Below, one piece after another: positions 40,734-49,961 of a stretch of 64,000 nucleotides of DNA. Position numbers and translations under genes: made by a program. Each line of letters begins with the position of its first letter. Position 1 is the stretch's first letter. The stretch covers positions 1-64,000 of the forward strand of contig NZ_JAKCFB010000010.1 of the NCBI RefSeq assembly GCF_024198235.1, read 5' to 3'. The stretch comes from Myxococcus dinghuensis (GTDB lineage: Bacteria > Myxococcota > Myxococcia > Myxococcales > Myxococcaceae). A model generated the notes under the pieces. The model worked only from the letters and a program-made list of their open reading frames with translations, had not been told where the DNA came from and searched no databases.

Positions 40734-42233
40734 ATGACTTTCGACGAACTTCAGCTTCACGAGACCCTTCTGCGAGCCGTCAATGCAGAGGGCTACACCA
40801 CCCCCACGCCCATCCAGGAGAAGGCGATTCCCCACGCCCTGCTGGGCAAGGACGTGCTGGGCGTGGCCCAGACGGGCACGGGCAAGACGGCGGCGTTCGC
40901 GCTGCCCATCCTCCAGCGGTTGTCGGCGAAGGCGCCGGCGGGCGGGGCGCGGCCGGTGCGCTGCCTGGTGCTCACGCCGACGCGCGAGCTGGCCGGGCAG
41001 GTGGGGGAGAGCTTCATGACCTACGGCCGGAACCTGCCGCTGCGGCACGCGGTGATTTTCGGCGGCGTGGGGCAGGCGGCGCAGGTGCAGTCGCTGCGCA
41101 ACGGCGTGGACGTGCTGGTGGCGACGCCGGGTCGTCTGCTGGACTTGATGGACCAGGGCTTCGTGTCGCTGCGCTCGCTCGAGGTGTTCGTGCTCGACGA
41201 GGCGGACCGCATGCTGGACATGGGGTTCATCCACGACGTGCGCAAGGTCATCAAGGCGCTGCCGCTCAAGCGTCAGACGCTCTTCTTCAGCGCGACGATG
41301 CCGCCGGAGATCGTCGACCTGTCGCGCAACATCCTCACGGACCCCATCCGCGTGGAGGTGACGCCCGTCTCCAGCACGGCGGAGACGGTGACGCAGCAGG
41401 TGTACTTCGTGGAGCGCGAGCAGAAGCGCGGCCTGTTGACGCACCTGCTGAAGGACGAGGCGCGGATTCCGCGCGCGCTGGTCTTCACGCGCACCAAGCA
41501 CGGCGCCAACCGCGTGGCGAAGCAGCTCGAGCAGGCCGGGGTGTACGCCGCCGCGATTCACGGCAACAAGAGCCAGAACGCGCGCGAGCGCGCGCTGGAT
41601 GACTTCCGCTCGGGGGACATCCGCGTCCTGGTCGCCACGGACATCGCGGCGCGCGGCATCGACATCGACGGGCTGAGCTTCGTCATCAACTACGACCTGC
41701 CCAACGTGCCGGAGCAGTACGTGCACCGCATCGGCCGCACGGGCCGCGCGGGCGCGACCGGGACGGCCGTGTCCTTCTGCGACGCCGAGGAGCGCGCGTA
41801 CCTGCGCGACATCGAGAAGACCATCCGTCGGTCCGTGCCGGTGGTCGAGGAGCATCCGTACCGCTCCGGTAGCCCGGCGCCGCGTCCCGCGGCCTCTGCC
41901 TCGGTGCAGGCGCCCTCGCGGGGGCCGGCGCCCGCGGCCCAGGCTCGCGGCGGGCGACAGGGCCAGCAGGACGGTGGTGGTGGTCGTGGCAACGCCCCGG
42001 GGAACGGCTCCCGGCGTCGTCGTGGCGGCCGCGGCCCCGGCGGCCAGGGGCGCTCCGAGGGGAACCGCTCGGCGCGTCCGGGTGGGTCGGGGGCGGGTCG
42101 CGGCAACGCACAGGCCCCTCGCGGTCCGAGCGCCGCGCCACGTCCGGCGGGTGCCAATGCGGCGCCGCAGGCCTCCGTGCCACCTCGCGCCGAGCCGCCT
42201 CCCGCGCGCCGTCAGGCGCCGAAGTGGCTGTAG
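40734..42233 (+). CDS. rhlE: DEAD-box RNA helicase, RhlE type
   Basis: ATP-dependent RNA helicase; 499 residues. Motifs: Q motif [20 protein letters not shown], Ia PTRELAGQ, Ib [58 protein letters not shown]. The core ends about residue 375; the last 120 residues are Arg/Gly/Pro/Ala-rich ([16 protein letters not shown]), a typical RNA-binding tail of RhlE proteins in high-GC bacteria. Probable role in RNA decay or ribosome assembly. Confidence 0.9.
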
Positions 42234-42248
42234 CTCGCGTGTACATCC

Positions 42249-42281
42249 CCGCCCGGTGACACATCGGTCGTCACCGGGCGG
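42249..42281 (+). terminator. Terminator-like hairpin after RhlE gene
   Basis: Perfect 12-bp stem CCGCCCGGTGAC / GTCACCGGGCGG with a 9-nt loop, 15 nt after the stop. It is followed by an AT-richer stretch (42295-42320) that leads into the next gene's upstream region. Confidence 0.6.
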
Positions 42282-42448
42282 CTGTGAACGTGCGAGTGTT
42301 GTAATTCAAGTAAATCAGGCGTAGCGTGTGGGTGTATCGAAGGCTCATGGAGTCGGGTGACTCCATGGCGCGGTGCCGTGTGCTCGAGTCCGTGAGCGCG
42401 CCGCCGCGTGCAGTCTCTCGAGTGCCACCCCATGCCGGTGCCTGACCC

Positions 42449-44290
42449 ATGAAAAAGCTCGTGTCGTTGGTGGCGTGTCTGCTGCCCCTCGTGGCGCTCG
42501 CGGACAACGCCATCGTCGGAAACCTGCGACCCGTGCAGGGCTCCATCGAGACCTATCTCGTCGAATGGGAGTCGTGGACCCAGGCCCACGACAACTACGC
42601 CAACGTCAGCTGGAGCGTCGCGGGCGGGACGCTCGTCGGCGCGGACAAGCACTCCGTGGTCATCCTGTGGGACACGGCCCCCAACAACCAGGACATCGTC
42701 GGGGGCATCGAAGTCTACGAGGACCTGGGTGGACAGTCCGGCTCCGCCGCGCTGGACGTCGTGAACCCCAACGCCAGTTCGTCGAAGTTCTGCGAGGGCG
42801 CGCTCGGACAGCCTGCCGCCTTGGTGGACTTCGGCAGTGGCCCCAATCCAGGGCCTGCGTTGCCTGTGGGGGCCACCACGTATCTCTACAACCCGAGTTG
42901 CGCGATCAGTCCGAACGAGTACACGCGCACCAACAGCTCCGTGGCGTGCAGGGCCAACTGGCACGGAATCCCGAGCGACCACACGCCGGGCGATTCGAAC
43001 GGCTACTTCCTGATGGTCGACGCGAACGAGTCCCTGGGGGAGTTCTATCGGACCACGGTCCAGGGGCTGACCTCTTCGTTCCGGTATGAGTTCTCCGCCT
43101 GGGTGGGAAACCTGGTCAACGTGGAGGTGGCTGATTGGCAAGACCCCTCCATTCAATTCGAGCTGCACAGCGGAGGAACCGTCATCGCGAGCAGCGCGAA
43201 CATCACCGTGCCGTTCACCTCGCAGTTCGCGTGGCGGAAGGTGGGCTTCATGTTCGACCTCCCGGTCGGCGTGACGTCGCTTGACGTCGTGGTCGTGAAT
43301 CGCCACGGAGAACACAACGGCAACGACCTGGTGCTCGATGACATCGCCTTCGCGCCGTGCTTGCCGCCCATCGTCGCGTCATTCCAGAGCGGCATCGTGG
43401 TGGACAAGGCGCACGTCTGCACGCGTGGCTCGGTGAGTCTCCACGGATGGTGGCCATCCTCCAGCCCGTATTCCTCTCCAGCCTTTCAATGGCAACGGAG
43501 CTACGACAAGGGTGACAGCTGGCACGACATCCCTGGTGCCACGTCACTCGCGGCTTCGTACTCGGAGCCGTCGGCGGGCATCTTCCAGTATCGATTGAAG
43601 GCGTTCGAGGCCGCGAATCCGTACCAGTCCATGGTGTCGAATTCGCTGACCCACTTCGTACAGCGGATGGTGGTGGAGCCCATGCGGGAGCCGTGGCTCT
43701 CCTGCAATGGCAGCAGCATCTCCCGCCTCCTCATCCCGAAGTTCTCCTTGGAATTCGCGGACCCGTTCCGCCCCCAGAGCCCGAGCTTCAACTGGTCGCC
43801 GGGGACGTACCTCAGCTCGACGACGGCGCAGGTGCCGACCCTCTCCCTGCCAGCGCTCGGTGCCCCGCCTGCACCGACCGACCCTCCCGCCCCCGCCGTC
43901 GTCCACGAGTACATGTTGACGGTGGCGGACAGCGTCTCGGGGTGCTCTGGCGCTGCGCCGCAGATCATCGAGCAGCGCAACCCGCGCAAGGTCGCCGTTC
44001 CCAGCGCGTTCTCGCCGGACGGCAATGGCATCAACGACCTCTTCAGGCCCCTCAACATCGAGGACTATCCCGGGTCCAGGTTCTGGGTCTTCAACCGATG
44101 GGGCGAGAACATCTTCTACTCCGAGGGACGCACGCTCCTGGACTTCTCGTGGGACGGCACCTACCAGGGCGAACACCAGCCCGTTGGTACGTATGTCTGG
44201 CGCGTGCAGCTCAGCGACTGCCACGACAACATCATCAACGGCTCGTCGGGTGGCAGTCTGCCGTACGGCAATGTGACGCTGATCCGCTGA
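42449..44290 (+). CDS. Secreted protein with gliding-motility / T9SS type B C-terminal domain
   Basis: 613 residues. A signal peptide (KKLVSLVACLLPLVALA) starts at ATG 42449. Residues 20-330 are beta-rich with a lectin or jelly-roll-like look (SFRYEFSAWVGNL, LDVVVVNRHG, DLVLDDIAFAPC); 330-500 look like immunoglobulin/PKD-type units. Residues 515-613 match the CHU_C / TIGR04131 gliding-motility C-terminal domain: VPSAFSPDGNGINDLFRP, RFWVFNRWGENIF, WDGTYQGEHQPVGTYVWRV, and the final NVTLIR. This domain is the type IX secretion sorting signal of Bacteroidetes. Sampled 60-nt lines are 57-60% GC, lower than neighbours, suggesting transfer. Confidence 0.75.
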   Translation: MKKLVSLVACLLPLVALADNAIVGNLRPVQGSIETYLVEWESWTQAHDNYANVSWSVAGGTLVGADKHSVVILWDTAPNNQDIVGGIEVYEDLGGQSGSAALDVVNPNASSSKFCEGALGQPAALVDFGSGPNPGPALPVGATTYLYNPSCAISPNEYTRTNSSVACRANWHGIPSDHTPGDSNGYFLMVDANESLGEFYRTTVQGLTSSFRYEFSAWVGNLVNVEVADWQDPSIQFELHSGGTVIASSANITVPFTSQFAWRKVGFMFDLPVGVTSLDVVVVNRHGEHNGNDLVLDDIAFAPCLPPIVASFQSGIVVDKAHVCTRGSVSLHGWWPSSSPYSSPAFQWQRSYDKGDSWHDIPGATSLAASYSEPSAGIFQYRLKAFEAANPYQSMVSNSLTHFVQRMVVEPMREPWLSCNGSSISRLLIPKFSLEFADPFRPQSPSFNWSPGTYLSSTTAQVPTLSLPALGAPPAPTDPPAPAVVHEYMLTVADSVSGCSGAAPQIIEQRNPRKVAVPSAFSPDGNGINDLFRPLNIEDYPGSRFWVFNRWGENIFYSEGRTLLDFSWDGTYQGEHQPVGTYVWRVQLSDCHDNIINGSSGGSLPYGNVTLIR

Positions 44291-44312
44291 CCGGGAGGCT
44301 CACTCCTCCCGG
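44291..44312. terminator. Bidirectional terminator-like hairpin
   Basis: Perfect 8-bp stem CCGGGAGG / CCTCCCGG with loop CTCACT, directly at the convergent ends of the secreted protein and the thioesterase. Confidence 0.5.
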
Positions 44313-44722
44313 CCGCCCATGGCGCTGATGGTGCCCTGGGCCACGGCGACCAGCGTCTCCCGTTCGGAATCCACGGCGAACACGTCGCACTGGCACACCG
44401 CCTGGCGCCGCCCCACGTGGACGGGGCGCGCCCGGGCGATGAGGCGCGTGCCGACGGCGGGGCGCACGTAGTTGATCTTGAACTCCGACGTCACCACCGG
44501 CGCCCCCTTCATCGCGATGCCACCGGCGAAGGTGAGGGCGTTGTCCGCCATGTAGCTCAGCACGCCCCCGTGGGCGAAGCCGTGCTGCTGCTTCATGTCC
44601 TCGCGCAAGGGCAGCTCCAGCACCGCCTCGCTCAGCGTCAGGCGTGTCAGCTTCGTCCCCATCATCTGGCTGAAGGACTGCTGCGCCAGCACCGCGTTGC
44701 CCAGCTCCATGAAGGACTCCAT
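44300..44722 (-). CDS. PaaI-family hotdog thioesterase
   Basis: Predicted acyl-CoA thioesterase; 140 residues from ATG 44722, which has GGGAGG about 5 nt upstream; ATGs at 44734 and 44737 are upstream alternatives. Hotdog features: LPLREDMKQQHGFAHGGVLSYMADNAL with conserved HGG, then VTSEFKINYVRPAVGTRLIARARPVHVGRR and a final VAVAQGTI strand. Divergent from a TetR regulator with a palindrome between them, so it is probably the regulator's target. The natural acyl substrate is unknown. Confidence 0.82.
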   Translation of the reverse strand: MESFMELGNAVLAQQSFSQMMGTKLTRLTLSEAVLELPLREDMKQQHGFAHGGVLSYMADNALTFAGGIAMKGAPVVTSEFKINYVRPAVGTRLIARARPVHVGRRQAVCQCDVFAVDSERETLVAVAQGTISAMGGREE

Positions 44723-45434: not shown

Positions 45435-48400
45435 CTACATGTTGCGACGGTACTGCCCGCCCACCTCGTACAGGGCGCGGGAGAGCTGGCCGAGCGTGCA
45501 GACCTTACAGGCGTCCATCAGCGCGGCGAAGATGTTGCCGTTGTCCAGCGCCGCGCGCTTGACGGCCTCCAGCGCCGCCGGCGTCGTCTGGGCGTTGCGC
45601 TTCCAGAAGGCGTCGCGCGCGGAGATGGCGTAGTCCTTCTCCTCCGTCGTGGCGCGAATCACCTCGGGCGGCTGCACCGTGGGCGAGCCCTTCGGGTCGA
45701 GGAAGGTGTTCACGCCGATGATGGGCAGCGAGCCATCGTGCTTGAGCGTCTCGTAGTAGAGCGACTCCTCCTGGATCTTCGACCGCTGGTACATGCGCTC
45801 CATGGCGCCCAGCACGCCGCCGCGCTCGGAGATGGCGCGGAACTCCGCCAGCACCGCCGCCTCCACCAGGTCCGTCAGCTCCTCCACGATGAACGAGCCC
45901 TGGTTGGGGTTCTCGTTCTTGGAGAGGCCGAACTCCTTGTTGATGATGAGCTGGATGGCGAGCGCACGCCGCACGCTCTCCTCCGTCGGCGTGGTGATGG
46001 CCTCGTCGTACGCGTTGGTGTGCAACGAGTTGCAGTTGTCGTTGAGCGCCAGCAGCGCCTGGAGCGTGGTCCGGATGTCGTTGAAGGCGATCTCCTGCGC
46101 GTGCAGGGACCGGCCCGACGTCTGGATGTGGTACTTCAACTTCTGCGAGCGGTCGTTGGCGCCGTACTTGTCGCGGAGGGTCTTCGCCCAGATGCGGCGC
46201 GCCACGCGGCCGAGCACCGTGTACTCGGGGTCCATCCCGTTCGAGAAGAAGAACGAGAGGTTGGGCGCGAAGTCGTCGATGTGCATCCCGCGCGACAGGT
46301 AGTACTCGACGAAGGTGAAGCCGTTGGCCAGCGTGAAGGCCAGCTGGGAGATGGGGTTCGCCCCGGCCTCCGCGATGTGGTAGCCGGAGATGGACACCGA
46401 GTAGAAGTTCCGCACCTTCTTGTCGGTGAAGTACTGCTGGATGTCGCCCATCAGCCGCAGGGCGAACTCGGTGGAGAAGATGCAGGTGTTCTGCGCCTGG
46501 TCCTCCTTGAGGATGTCCGCCTGCACCGTGCCGCGCACCTGCTGCAGCGTCGACGCGCGGATCTTCTCGTACACGTCCCGGGGCAGCACCTCGTCGCCGG
46601 ACACGCCCAGCAGCAGCAGGCCCAGCCCGTCGTTGCCCTGCGGCAGGTCACCCTGGTAGCGCGGACGCGGCAGGCCCCGCTCCTGGTAGAGCGCGTCGAT
46701 CTTCTTCTCGACCTCCTCCACCTTGCCGTTGGCGCGGATCCACTTCTCGCACTGCTGGTCCACCGCGGCGTTGAGGAAGAAGCCCAGCAGCATCGGCGCG
46801 GGGCCGTTGATGGTCATCGACACCGACGTGGACGGGTCCGCCAGGTCGAAGCCGGAGTAGAGCTTCTTCGCGTCGTCCACGTTGGCGATGGACACGCCCG
46901 AGTTGCCCACCTTGCCGTAGATGTCCGGCCGGTGGTCCGGGTCCTCGCCGTACAGCGTCACGGAGTCGAACGCCGTGGACAGGCGCTTGGCGGGCAGCCC
47001 GCGCGAGACGTAGTGGAAGCGCTTGTTGGTGCGCTCCGGGCCGCCCTCGCCGGCGAACATGCGCGCGGGGTCCTCTCCCTCGCGCTTGAGCGGGAAGACG
47101 CCCGCGGTGAACGGGAAGGCGCCCGGGGCATTCTCACGCAGCAACCACAGGAGGATGTCGCCCCAGTCCTCGTAGCGGGGCAGGGCGATCTTCGGGATGC
47201 GCAGGTGGGAGAGCGACTCCGTGAAGAGGTCCAGCTCGATGACCTTGTCGCGAACCTGATACTGGTACTTCGCCGCCGCGTAGCGGCGCTTCGTCGCCGG
47301 CCACTCGGCCAGCAGCCGCCGGCACTCCGGGTCGAGCCGCGTCTCCAGGTCCTTGTACAGCTCCACCAGCTCGGTGAGGTACGCGGGCTCGCCCTCGACG
47401 CGCTCGGTGACGTGCACCACGTCCGACGTGTCCTTGGGCTCGACGATCTCCAGCCGCTTCTTCCCCACGTTGGCGCGCAGCGCCTCGATGGTGCCGTGCA
47501 ACTGGTACATCCGCCGGGCGATGGCCGCCTGCGCGCGGGCGAACTTGTCGTACGCCTCGCACGTCTCGACGATCTCCGCCAGGTAGCGGGTGCGCTCGGG
47601 CGGGATGATCCACTTCTTCTCGCTCATGCCGGGCGTGGCGGCCAGCTTCGACTCGAGCGGGGCGCCCGTCTTGCGCGCCACGGTGTCCATGATGGACCGG
47701 TAGAGCTGGTTCATCCCCGGGTCGTTGAACTGCGACGCGATGGTCCCGAACACGGGCACCGCGTCATCCGCGGTGGTGAAGGCGTTGTGGTTGCGCTTCC
47801 ACTGCTTGCGCACGTCGCGCAGCGCGTCCAGCGAGCCGCGCTTGTCGAACTTGTTGATGGCGATGATGTCCGCGAAGTCGAGCATGTCGATCTTCTCGAG
47901 CTGCGTGGCGGCGCCGTACTCCGCCGTCATCACGTAGAGCGAGGCGTCCGAGTGCTCGGTGATCTCCGTGTCGGACTGACCGATACCGGAGGTCTCCACG
48001 ATGATGAGGTCGAAGCCCGCGGCCTTGCAGACCTCGATGGACTCACCCACGTGCTTGGACAGGGCGAGGTTGCTCTGTCGGGTCGCCATGGAGCGCATGT
48101 ACACGCGCGAGTTGTCGATGGCGTTCATGCGGATGCGGTCGCCCAGGAGCGCGCCGCCCGACTTGCGCTTGGACGGGTCCACGGACAGCACCGCGAGCGT
48201 CTTGTCCGGGAAGTCCGCCAGGAAGCGGCGCACCAGCTCGTCGACGAGGCTGGACTTGCCCGCGCCGCCGGTGCCGGTGATGCCGAGCACGGGGACGCGC
48301 GGTCCCTGGGCGCGCGCCTTCTGGAGCGCGTCGCGCAGGGCATCACCCACGGCGGAGAAGTTCTCCGCGACGGTGATGAGCGACGCGATGCGCGAGGGCT

Positions 48401-48872
48401 CGCGCGCCGGCCGGGCCGCGAGCGCCTGCGCGAAGTCCGCGGGGCGCTTCTCGAAGTCGCACTCGGCGATGAGGTGGTCGATCATCCCCTGCAGGCCCAT
48501 GGCCCGCCCGTCGTCCGGGGAGTAGATGCGCGTGACGCCGTACGCGTGCAGCTCTTCAATCTCGCTCGGGAGGATGGTGCCGCCACCACCGCCGAAGACC
48601 TTGATGTTCGCCCCGCGCTGCTTCAGCAGGTCGATCATGTACTTGAAGAACTCGACGTGGCCGCCCTGGTAGGAGGTGATGGCGATGCCCTGGGCATCCT
48701 CCTGGATGGCGCAGTCGACGATCTCCGCCACGGAGCGGTTGTGCCCCAGGTGGATGATCTCCGCGCCAGAGGCCTGCATCAGGCGGCGCATGACGTTGAT
48801 GGCCGCGTCGTGCCCGTCGAACAGGGAGGCGGCCGTCACGATTCGCACGTGGAATCGCGGCTTGTAGGGCAT
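45435..48872 (-). CDS. icmF: Fused isobutyryl-CoA mutase IcmF
   Basis: B12-dependent mutase interconverting isobutyryl-CoA and n-butyryl-CoA; 1145 residues from ATG 48872. Order: B12-binding domain (1-150, [13 protein letters not shown]), MeaB-like G-protein chaperone domain (P-loop GTGGAGKSS near 200), linker, then the mutase TIM barrel. In the substrate site [14 protein letters not shown] carries Phe where methylmalonyl-CoA mutases have Tyr89, and [11 protein letters not shown] has Gln where they have Arg207; this pair is the known isobutyryl-type signature. Fourth gene of a minus cluster with meaB, mutB and mutA. A plus-strand frame across it is a shadow. Confidence 0.9.
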
Positions 48873-48977
48873 GGGAACGGAGGTCAACTGGACGTTTCGC
48901 ACGCCGCGTACAGTAGGAGCGCGGTGGGGGACGGGCAAGCGATTGAAGCGGGCCCGCCCGTCACACGACGCGGGCTG

Positions 48978-49961
48978 TCAAGCCCTCGATTCCGGGAGGA
49001 ATGCGCCCAGCACGCGCAGTGCGGCGGACGTCGGCGTGGCGCGTCCGGCGCGCACTTCCGCCTCCAGCGTGGGGACGAGGGCGGCCACGGTGGGGTTCGC
49101 ATGCAGGGCCGCCCGCAGGCCGTCCTGCACCATGGCCCACATCCAGCCGATCTGCTGCTCCGTGCGTCGACGCGTCAACACGCCGGACGCCTCGCGCTTG
49201 CCCAACTGGGCCTCCACGGACGTCCACAGCCGGTCGATGCCCAGGTTCTGGAGCGCGCTGCAGGTCGTCACCTCGGGCTCCGAGCCCGGCCGCATCAGGT
49301 GCAGCGCCGCGCGCAGCTCCGCGCGGGCCCGCTCGGCCTTCGTCTGGTTGTCGCCATCCGCCTTGTTGACGACGAGCATGTCCGCGACCTCGAGGATGCC
49401 GCGCTTGATGCCCTGCAGCTCGTCGCCCGCACCGGCGAGCATCAACACCAGGTAGAAGTCCACCATGTCGGCGACCACCGTCTCCGACTGGCCCACGCCC
49501 ACCGTCTCCACCAGCACCACGTCGAAGCCCGCGGCCTCGCACAACAGCAGCGTCTCGCGCGTCTTGCGCGCGACCCCGCCCAGCGTGCCGCTGGAGGGGC
49601 TCGGCCGGATGTACGCGGCCTCCTCACGGGACAGCCGCGCCATGCGCGTCTTGTCCCCCAGGATGCTGCCGCCGGACACGGTGCTCGACGGGTCGATGGC
49701 GAGCACCGCGACGCGCCGTCCCGCGCCCACCAGGTGCATGCCCAGCGCGTCGATGAACGTGCTCTTGCCCACGCCCGGCACGCCGCTGATGCCCACGCGC
49801 CGGCTGCCGCCCGTGTGGGGGAGCAGGCGCGTGAGCACCTCCTGGGCCAACGCCTGGTGGCGCGGGTGGCCACTCTCCACCAGGGTGATGGCCCGGGCGA
49901 GCACGGCCCGGTCTCCCGCGCGGACGCCGTCGACGTAGGCGTCCGCCGTCAGCAGCTTCAC
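48978..49961 (-). CDS. meaB: Methylmalonyl-CoA mutase-associated GTPase MeaB
   Basis: GTPase chaperone that protects and reloads the B12 mutase. 327 residues. P-loop GVPGVGKST at 60-68, [18 protein letters not shown] near 90-107 (switch region), [10 protein letters not shown] near 150, and the NKADGDNQ G4 motif near 200. ATG 49961 overlaps the mutB stop by 4 nt (ATGA), so the two are translationally coupled and presumably made in matched amounts. Confidence 0.92.

Follow-up and report, generated by a model that had tools for sequence, protein, structure and literature searches.

The gene at the locus and the parts of its product

The window, meaning the whole stretch of 64,000 nt of Myxococcus dinghuensis DNA that was analyzed, contains between a DEAD-box helicase gene and a 4HBT thioesterase gene an open reading frame whose product ends in a sorting domain of the type IX secretion system (T9SS). 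T9SS type B sorting domain proteins (TIGR04131 or CHU_C) include SprB of Flavobacterium johnsoniae and PG1035 of Porphyromonas gingivalis. The following features were recognized.

42449..44290, + strand, the gene under study: open reading frame from ATG to stop, 613 aa, for a Bacteroidota-type secreted protein with a T9SS type B C-terminal domain
42449..42502, + strand, putative Sec signal peptide, residues 1-18, cut before D19 (by eye)
42506..42769, + strand, N-terminal region, residues 20-107, the fastest evolving part (boundaries approximate)
42770..43360, + strand, beta domain, possibly carbohydrate-binding, residues 108-304 (weak profile and PDB matches only)
43361..43978, + strand, Ig-like (by eye) and linker region, residues 305-510 (alignment A3; no family match)
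43979..44287, + strand, T9SS type B C-terminal domain, residues 511-613 (profile core 516-593 at 43994-44227)
44267..44287, + strand, terminal motif GNVTLIR (alignment with Bacteroidota ends)
42265..44299, no strand, segment missing from the helicase-thioesterase spacer of relatives, an insertion (alignment with G111)
42234..42296, no strand, imperfect inverted repeat with 27-nt arms behind the helicase gene (repeat search)
42346..42367, no strand, perfect 9-bp inverted repeat CATGGAGTC-GGGT-GACTCCATG, about 80 nt before the start codon

At the place equivalent to the imperfect repeat, the spacer of genome G111 contains a GC-rich palindrome (by eye). The perfect repeat is possibly an operator, a putative regulator site. 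No promoter- or terminator-like sites were found in 42100-44450. Elsewhere in the window, positions 45435-48938 (-) encode a methylmalonyl-CoA mutase fused to a MeaB-type GTPase and a B12-binding domain, which we take to be IcmF, and the adjoining gene at 48978-49961 (-) encodes a second, separate MeaB-like GTPase (by eye).

The signal-peptide features, recognized by eye, are an MK start, a hydrophobic core, and LA-D in all seven myxobacterial rows that reach the N-terminus; the row of the G109 copy ends short of it and is left out of this count. Residues 108-304 show a weak HpiC1-like match in Pfam (E=0.042), and the galactose-binding lectin 6yf6 was a weak PDB match (E=0.023) with the alignment profile A3. 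CBM_4_9 is absent among the Pfam matches of the window protein at E<=10, and was found in its homologue L023 with E=6e-4, below the CBM_4_9 cut-off. An AlphaFold2 model of the window protein, built with four sequences, had a mean pLDDT of 41.2 and was too poor to use. At its N-terminus, the G109 copy (L021:4370-5548) is longer by about 390 residues, among which Ig-type repeats were recognized (Ig_3, E=4.1e-7).

The sequence-only reading had assigned the last 99 residues to TIGR04131. The domain is indeed at the C-terminus and over both curated cut-offs, but the match spans 76-78 residues, namely 516-593 for CHU_C (53.6 bits, cut-off 27, E=2.5e-14) and 516-591 for TIGR04131 (42.8 bits, cut-off 35, E=4.2e-11). 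The last 22 residues occupy 11 positions of the TIGR04131 profile, leaving about 11 extra residues before the last strand, which are also present in the close Bacteroidota relatives described below. The domain lies at the extreme C-terminus, and its terminal GNVTLIR aligns with the ends of these relatives. The eight myxobacterial copies end in VTLIR in six cases, in VNLIR in the copy on contig C90, and in AILIR in G101, while the Bacteroidota relatives end in VTLIR (L023) or VLLIR (L024 and L046).

All six further myxobacterial copies that were scored pass the TIGR04131 cut-off, and the scores of the seven range from 42.7 to 57.4 bits. Among the Bacteroidota relatives, L023 scores 50.4 bits with CHU_C, and L024 is below both cut-offs (TIGR04131 16.8 bits, CHU_C 25.2 bits). 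Chance matches were gauged by searching 14 well-known control genomes with TIGR04131: none had a match at E<=0.001, and the weak ones that five genomes showed at E<=1 all stayed below the cut-off. The sequence-only observation of the domain is confirmed. At 47 columns conserved in 23 other domains from the Bacteroidota order, the window protein keeps 28, the eight myxobacterial copies 27-31, the three close Bacteroidota relatives 22-24, and the defining 23 rows 29-44 (mean 39.8); this comparison, like that of domain identity below, leaves out five incomplete rows (L053, L054, L057, L059, and L073).

Six TIGR04131 matches below the cut-off in Myxococcota lie in giant frames of 5,466-6,091 aa from six genomes, including the carrier G101, and one more (22.1 bits) lies in a 378-aa frame of G577. 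In these giant open frames of Myxococcaceae (L009-L014) the weak type B-like domain, which is internal in L009 (L009:1480-1780), the one read, is presumably an FlgD-like Ig domain. A CHU_C/TIGR04131 match alone must not count as proof of type IX secretion.

Distribution, relatives, and origin of the gene

The genome of the window (10.4 Mb, 124 contigs) encodes three such proteins, on contigs C2 (the window), C33, and C90. The window protein is 57% and 54% identical to the other two, which suggests that these probably arrived in separate events or came from a diverse pool. Eight copies, all open to the end, were found at seven loci in 6 of the 27 genomes of one genus. One carrier, G095, which has the genus code of the window's genome, is Pyxidicoccus caerfyrddinensis (its protein and flank are identical to those of L022), and another, G101, is a single-contig genome. 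TIGR04131 passes its cut-off in 6 of 145 genomes of the host's order, five more having weaker matches, and in 6 of 195 genomes of Myxococcota, all from one genus; the other 189 have no match over it. A search with the body only, without the domain, recovered the same eight proteins from the same six genomes, plus four weak matches (27-29 bits) in G035. Thus, body and domain go together.

Relatives in other phyla were sought by scanning 84,980 species genomes with the body alignment via two short peptide patterns. Of 21 stretches that fit, three encode relatives: the P. caerfyrddinensis gene and genes of two Bacteroidota metagenome-assembled genomes (MAGs), L023 (JAUZOA010000092.1) and, from Chitinophagales, L024 (JAATFP010000019.1). 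The scan is not exhaustive; it missed the copies of G098, G099, G101, G109, and G384. In the order to which the Chitinophagales MAG belongs, 396 genomes were scored with at most four candidates each; 232 had some body match, and two stood out with 659 and 577 bits, the MAG itself and G384 (L046); the next best reached 224 bits. The window protein shows 47% and 49% identity with the two MAG proteins and 48.7% with L046. It has the same architecture as these proteins and is co-linear with all three over its whole length, and the alignments with L023 and L024 include the end motif.

A PorP/SprF-type gene lies directly upstream of the cargo gene in all three Bacteroidota loci. The L023 locus has two in a row, with TIGR03519 scores of 169.8 bits (farther) and 74.9 bits (nearer) against a cut-off of 90.55; the nearer one passes the PF11751 cut-off with 49.9 bits. 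The neighbor in L024 matches TIGR03519 at profile positions 75-290 only and below the cut-off (62.1 bits, E=5.5e-17), with no Pfam match, and the gene of L046 (G384:C3:404796-405695) reaches 75.7 bits with PF11751. None of the six neighbors scanned in the window is of the PorP/SprF type. Directly downstream of the cargo gene, L024:7618-8394 and L046:291-1124 encode similar proteins that look outer-membrane-like by eye. The recurrence in two of three loci suggests that PorP, cargo, and downstream protein may form a unit of which myxobacteria took over just a part.

In a tree of 39 rows (from the 30 loci of the order, L045 was left out as a duplicate of L024), the eight myxobacterial and three close Bacteroidota proteins are on one side of a branch (100/100), and 28 further proteins from the Bacteroidota order are on the other. 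The program warned of the long branch of L057 and the unusual letter composition of the window protein, G098, and G099. Seven myxobacterial proteins form a clade (96/92), while the G109 protein groups with the Bacteroidota three (98/87); a single myxobacterial clade is not rejected (p-AU 0.152). Trees of the domain only and the body only, with 34 rows after removal of the same five incomplete rows, both keep the 11-row clade (100/98 and 100/100), so domain swapping was rejected; inside the clade, the domain-only tree does not resolve myxobacterial from Bacteroidota rows. The full protein and the C-terminal domain, whose phylogenies the sequence-only reading had proposed as a check, thus both group the myxobacterial proteins with the three Bacteroidota proteins. 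The agreement indicates joint transfer of body and domain out of Bacteroidota, in one event or several. Because the clade contains eight myxobacterial and only three Bacteroidota proteins, the direction of transfer rests on the 28 distant proteins and the PorP linkage.

Base composition had been described as lower in GC than the neighbors, with an AT-richer upstream region, and the counts agree: GC is 64.3% in the gene, 64.2% in the 215 nt upstream of it, and 70.7% in the window. Among stretches of the gene's length (1842 nt) taken at 50-nt steps along the window, none has a lower GC than the gene, and 60-nt lines with GC of 60% or less make up 26.7% of the gene versus 5.3% of the window. The third-position GC (GC3) is 0.869, close to the 0.88-0.95 of the genes on either side, which indicates that the gene is largely adapted to its host. 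The myxobacterial copies are mostly low in GC (55-67%). The lowest is the G109 copy, with 55.1% over the aligned part, which may be the most recent arrival; the C90 copy has a GC3 of only 0.71. Unlike the window gene, the L023 and L024 genes have 41-44% GC (GC3 0.33-0.44) and belong to genomes with SprA, PorP/SprF, and GldM.

The nearest relative at the site, G111 (86-89% DNA identity), is without any copy. It aligns up to 42264 (89%) and again from 44300 (86%), with 178 bp between. The site is empty in ten genomes (G111, G096, G102, G112, G105, G098, G099, G110, G101, and G113), where 178-798 bp separate the aligned helicase and thioesterase parts, too little for an 1842-nt gene. This comparison covered 14 of 30 loci, one being the window itself, the other 16 being short matches; G109, G104, and G095 match the thioesterase only and are uninformative on the site. 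The simplest reading of the empty site is a gain in the lineage of the window.

The copies of G098 and G099 share one locus with the same neighbors. Apart from these orthologues, BLASTN of 13-14 kb around each copy revealed a common flank only between L017 and L021, over 140 bp; a shared mobile element for all copies was rejected, since the flanks at the seven loci have almost nothing in common. The C90 and G101 copies have some common sequence just before the gene (by eye). A transposase fragment (HTH_Tnp_1, L016:5169-5609) lies just before the C90 copy. In plasmids, only residues 484-613 of the query were matched by tblastn, in five records of Persicobacter, Hymenobacter, and Aureispira, which we take to be Bacteroidota. 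In viral contigs, 16 stretches fit the pattern, and none encodes a relative.

The sequence-only reading had proposed that the domain was acquired from Bacteroidota, and had named closest homologues among myxobacteria with normal GC as contrary evidence. Acquisition from Bacteroidota is borne out by the whole-length homologues, the trees, the lower GC, the patchy presence, and the empty site in ten relatives; however, it concerns the whole gene and not a pasted domain, and the genome holds three divergent copies. The closest homologues of the window protein are indeed other myxobacterial proteins (54-58% identity), but these are patchy, mostly low in GC, and at unrelated loci. Judged from these comparisons, the gene very likely has a Bacteroidota origin, and its description as a T9SS type B cargo gene that arrived by horizontal transfer from a Chitinophagales-like source and is now accessory in one myxobacterial genus is supported by the sequences. 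Inheritance from an ancestor common with Bacteroidota, followed by massive loss, would fit the homologues in both phyla and the single myxobacterial clade that the AU test tolerates; set against 189 of 195 Myxococcota genomes with no match over the cut-off, the low GC, the empty site, and the best tree with G109 among the Bacteroidota, it is most improbable. Contamination of the assembly by Bacteroidota DNA has no observation in its favor and is barely conceivable, given flanks syntenic with relatives, a GC3 of 0.87 versus 0.33-0.44 in L023 and L024, and one copy in the single-contig genome G101.

Secretion machinery and conservation of the sorting domain

The T9SS is described as confined to Bacteroidota (PMC12618676, in the part available), and its genes as absent outside Bacteroidota and allied phyla (PMC11285876, in the part available). 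Type B cargo of F. johnsoniae needs the translocon and a PorP/SprF shuttle (PMC12618676, same part), and PorP-like proteins are proposed to hold type B cargo at the surface (PMC9143113, in the part available). The available part of PMC7323717, on T9SS gene transfer, contains no occurrence of myxobacteria, Proteobacteria, or other phyla. No report of T9SS-type domains in myxobacteria was found among the titles and abstract starts searched, a scope that excludes most subscription journals.

The machinery search was limited to SprA, PorP/SprF, and GldM. The genomes of L023 and L024 served as Bacteroidota controls throughout, with G384 added for PF11751 only, and G095 was entered as G147 via L022 in the carrier searches for SprA, TIGR03519, and GldM. 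SprA gave no match in the genome of the window at E<=10, was found in none of the six carriers and in both controls, and is over the cut-off in none of the 195 Myxococcota genomes. PorP/SprF was likewise found in none of the six carriers, by TIGR03519 (both controls positive) or over the cut-off by PF11751 (all three controls over it), and GldM in no carrier (both controls positive). A hidden PorP in G101, indicated by PF11751 with E=1.12 about 9 kb from its gene, was rejected on inspection by eye of the 327-aa frame, which looks like a different kind of protein. In 10 of 195 Myxococcota genomes, weak SprA matches (17.6-27 bits) at about positions 589-655 were observed in frames of 1,234-1,744 aa, such as L106; this stretch is possibly a small domain common to large envelope proteins.

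The earlier statement that myxobacteria have no T9SS is therefore upheld for the parts tested, and the search for gld and por genes that it had suggested detected none of the three in the carriers. It is highly probable that the host has no canonical T9SS, and there is no support for the domain working as a signal for secretion in the myxobacterial host. The window protein resembles T9SS type B proteins in its domain over the curated cut-offs, its LIR end, and its putative signal peptide (by eye), and differs from them in its host without detected SprA, PorP/SprF, or GldM, in having no adjoining PorP/SprF gene, and in the 11 or so extra residues.

Averaged over the 28 pairs of myxobacterial copies, the domain is 70.5% identical, compared with 62.2% for residues 108-510 and 47.9% for residues 36-107. 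The domain exceeds the body in 24 pairs; compared with residues 108-304 taken by themselves (67.6%), it is only slightly ahead. In the three pairs of close Bacteroidota proteins the values are 54.2% for the domain and 59.4% for the body, with the domain above the body in one. In the 24 pairs between myxobacteria and Bacteroidota they are 56.8% and 48.9%, with the domain above the body in 20. Since the domain exceeds the body between phyla too, part of this conservation belongs to the family as a whole, and the copies may have diverged to a large extent before the transfer.

The divergence of the G098 and G099 copies, which share their locus, happened in myxobacteria. Their domains differ by three changing and nine silent differences on 235 and 74 sites (pN/pS 0.105, p=2e-4), and their bodies have a pN/pS of 0.308; the difference between domain and body in changing and silent codons (3:9 vs 34:35) is not significant (p=0.21). 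In many other pairs, divergence is too high for reliable counts at silent sites, so the dN/dS reading uses this pair only. The domain evolves faster than the body in some pairs, such as the C90 and G101 copies (dN 0.211 versus 0.174). The sorting domain is probably under constraint, as far as these substitution patterns tell. Since no other region is better conserved on average, and purifying selection acts on it in the one pair that diverged in place, the domain shows no visible decay although no T9SS was detected to read it.

Possible roles of the orphan sorting domain

The reading that we favor, with somewhat better than even confidence, is a lectin- or adhesin-like protein that is exported by Sec, released by a native route, and keeps its former sorting domain for other reasons. 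The protein would be exported to the periplasm by Sec and fold there, and would leave by a myxobacterial route, most likely the type II secretion system. Once released, it may act as a lectin or adhesin. The former sorting domain would be retained for folding, stability, or binding, not for reading by a T9SS.

The type II system of Myxococcus xanthus carries MYXO-CTERM proteins to the surface, and releases TraA when the latter is without its own sorting tag (PMC11980579, in the part available). By analogy, release by the type II system or vesicles, rather than a stay in the periplasm, might be tentatively suggested. MYXO-CTERM (TIGR03901) is similar to the sorting domain in being a C-terminal tag, and decides surface placement in myxobacteria through the type II route (PMC11980579, same part). 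However, the end of the window protein has neither a transmembrane helix nor an Arg-rich tail (by eye), and TIGR03901 is absent among its matches, TIGR04131 being the only one at E<=10 with filters that drop most matches above about 0.1.

The gene could instead be useless or selfish cargo, its product staying in the periplasm and its sorting domain decaying. The lack of any detected T9SS part in the carriers and the patchy presence of the gene are in line with such a passenger, but eight open copies, a domain that is on average the best-conserved region with purifying selection in G098/G099, and three divergent copies kept in one genome make it unlikely. A myxobacterial outer-membrane protein, unlike recognizable PorP/SprF, might also read the domain and bring the protein to the surface for display. 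Conservation is seen in the NGDG-ND region and at the LIR end, and the five conserved motifs (A-E) of F. johnsoniae type B domains are each required for secretion (PMC12618676, in the part available). Against such re-purposed sorting stand the absence of a partner by the PorP profiles and flanks with almost nothing in common at the seven loci, where neighbors were annotated around the window only; it is considered rather improbable.

A further possibility, which we regard as a long shot, is that the domain still binds PorP/SprF-type shuttles, but those of Bacteroidota prey or neighbors. It would then be a putative targeting module, by which the lectin-like protein of a predatory myxobacterium docks on gliding Bacteroidota, or jams their secretion and gliding surface. 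This would explain both the well-conserved signal without a detected machine and the repeated gathering of divergent copies.

Transfer between phyla of a T9SS cargo gene, without the matching machine, is well supported, and the orphan signal is unexpectedly conserved. A T9SS cargo gene has crossed, with its sorting domain intact, into a phylum with no SprA over the cut-off. The orphan domain separates the role of a secretion signal from a structural or binding role, two roles that are hard to part inside Bacteroidota, and the orphan cargo gene is a natural system for studying what the domain does without the machine.
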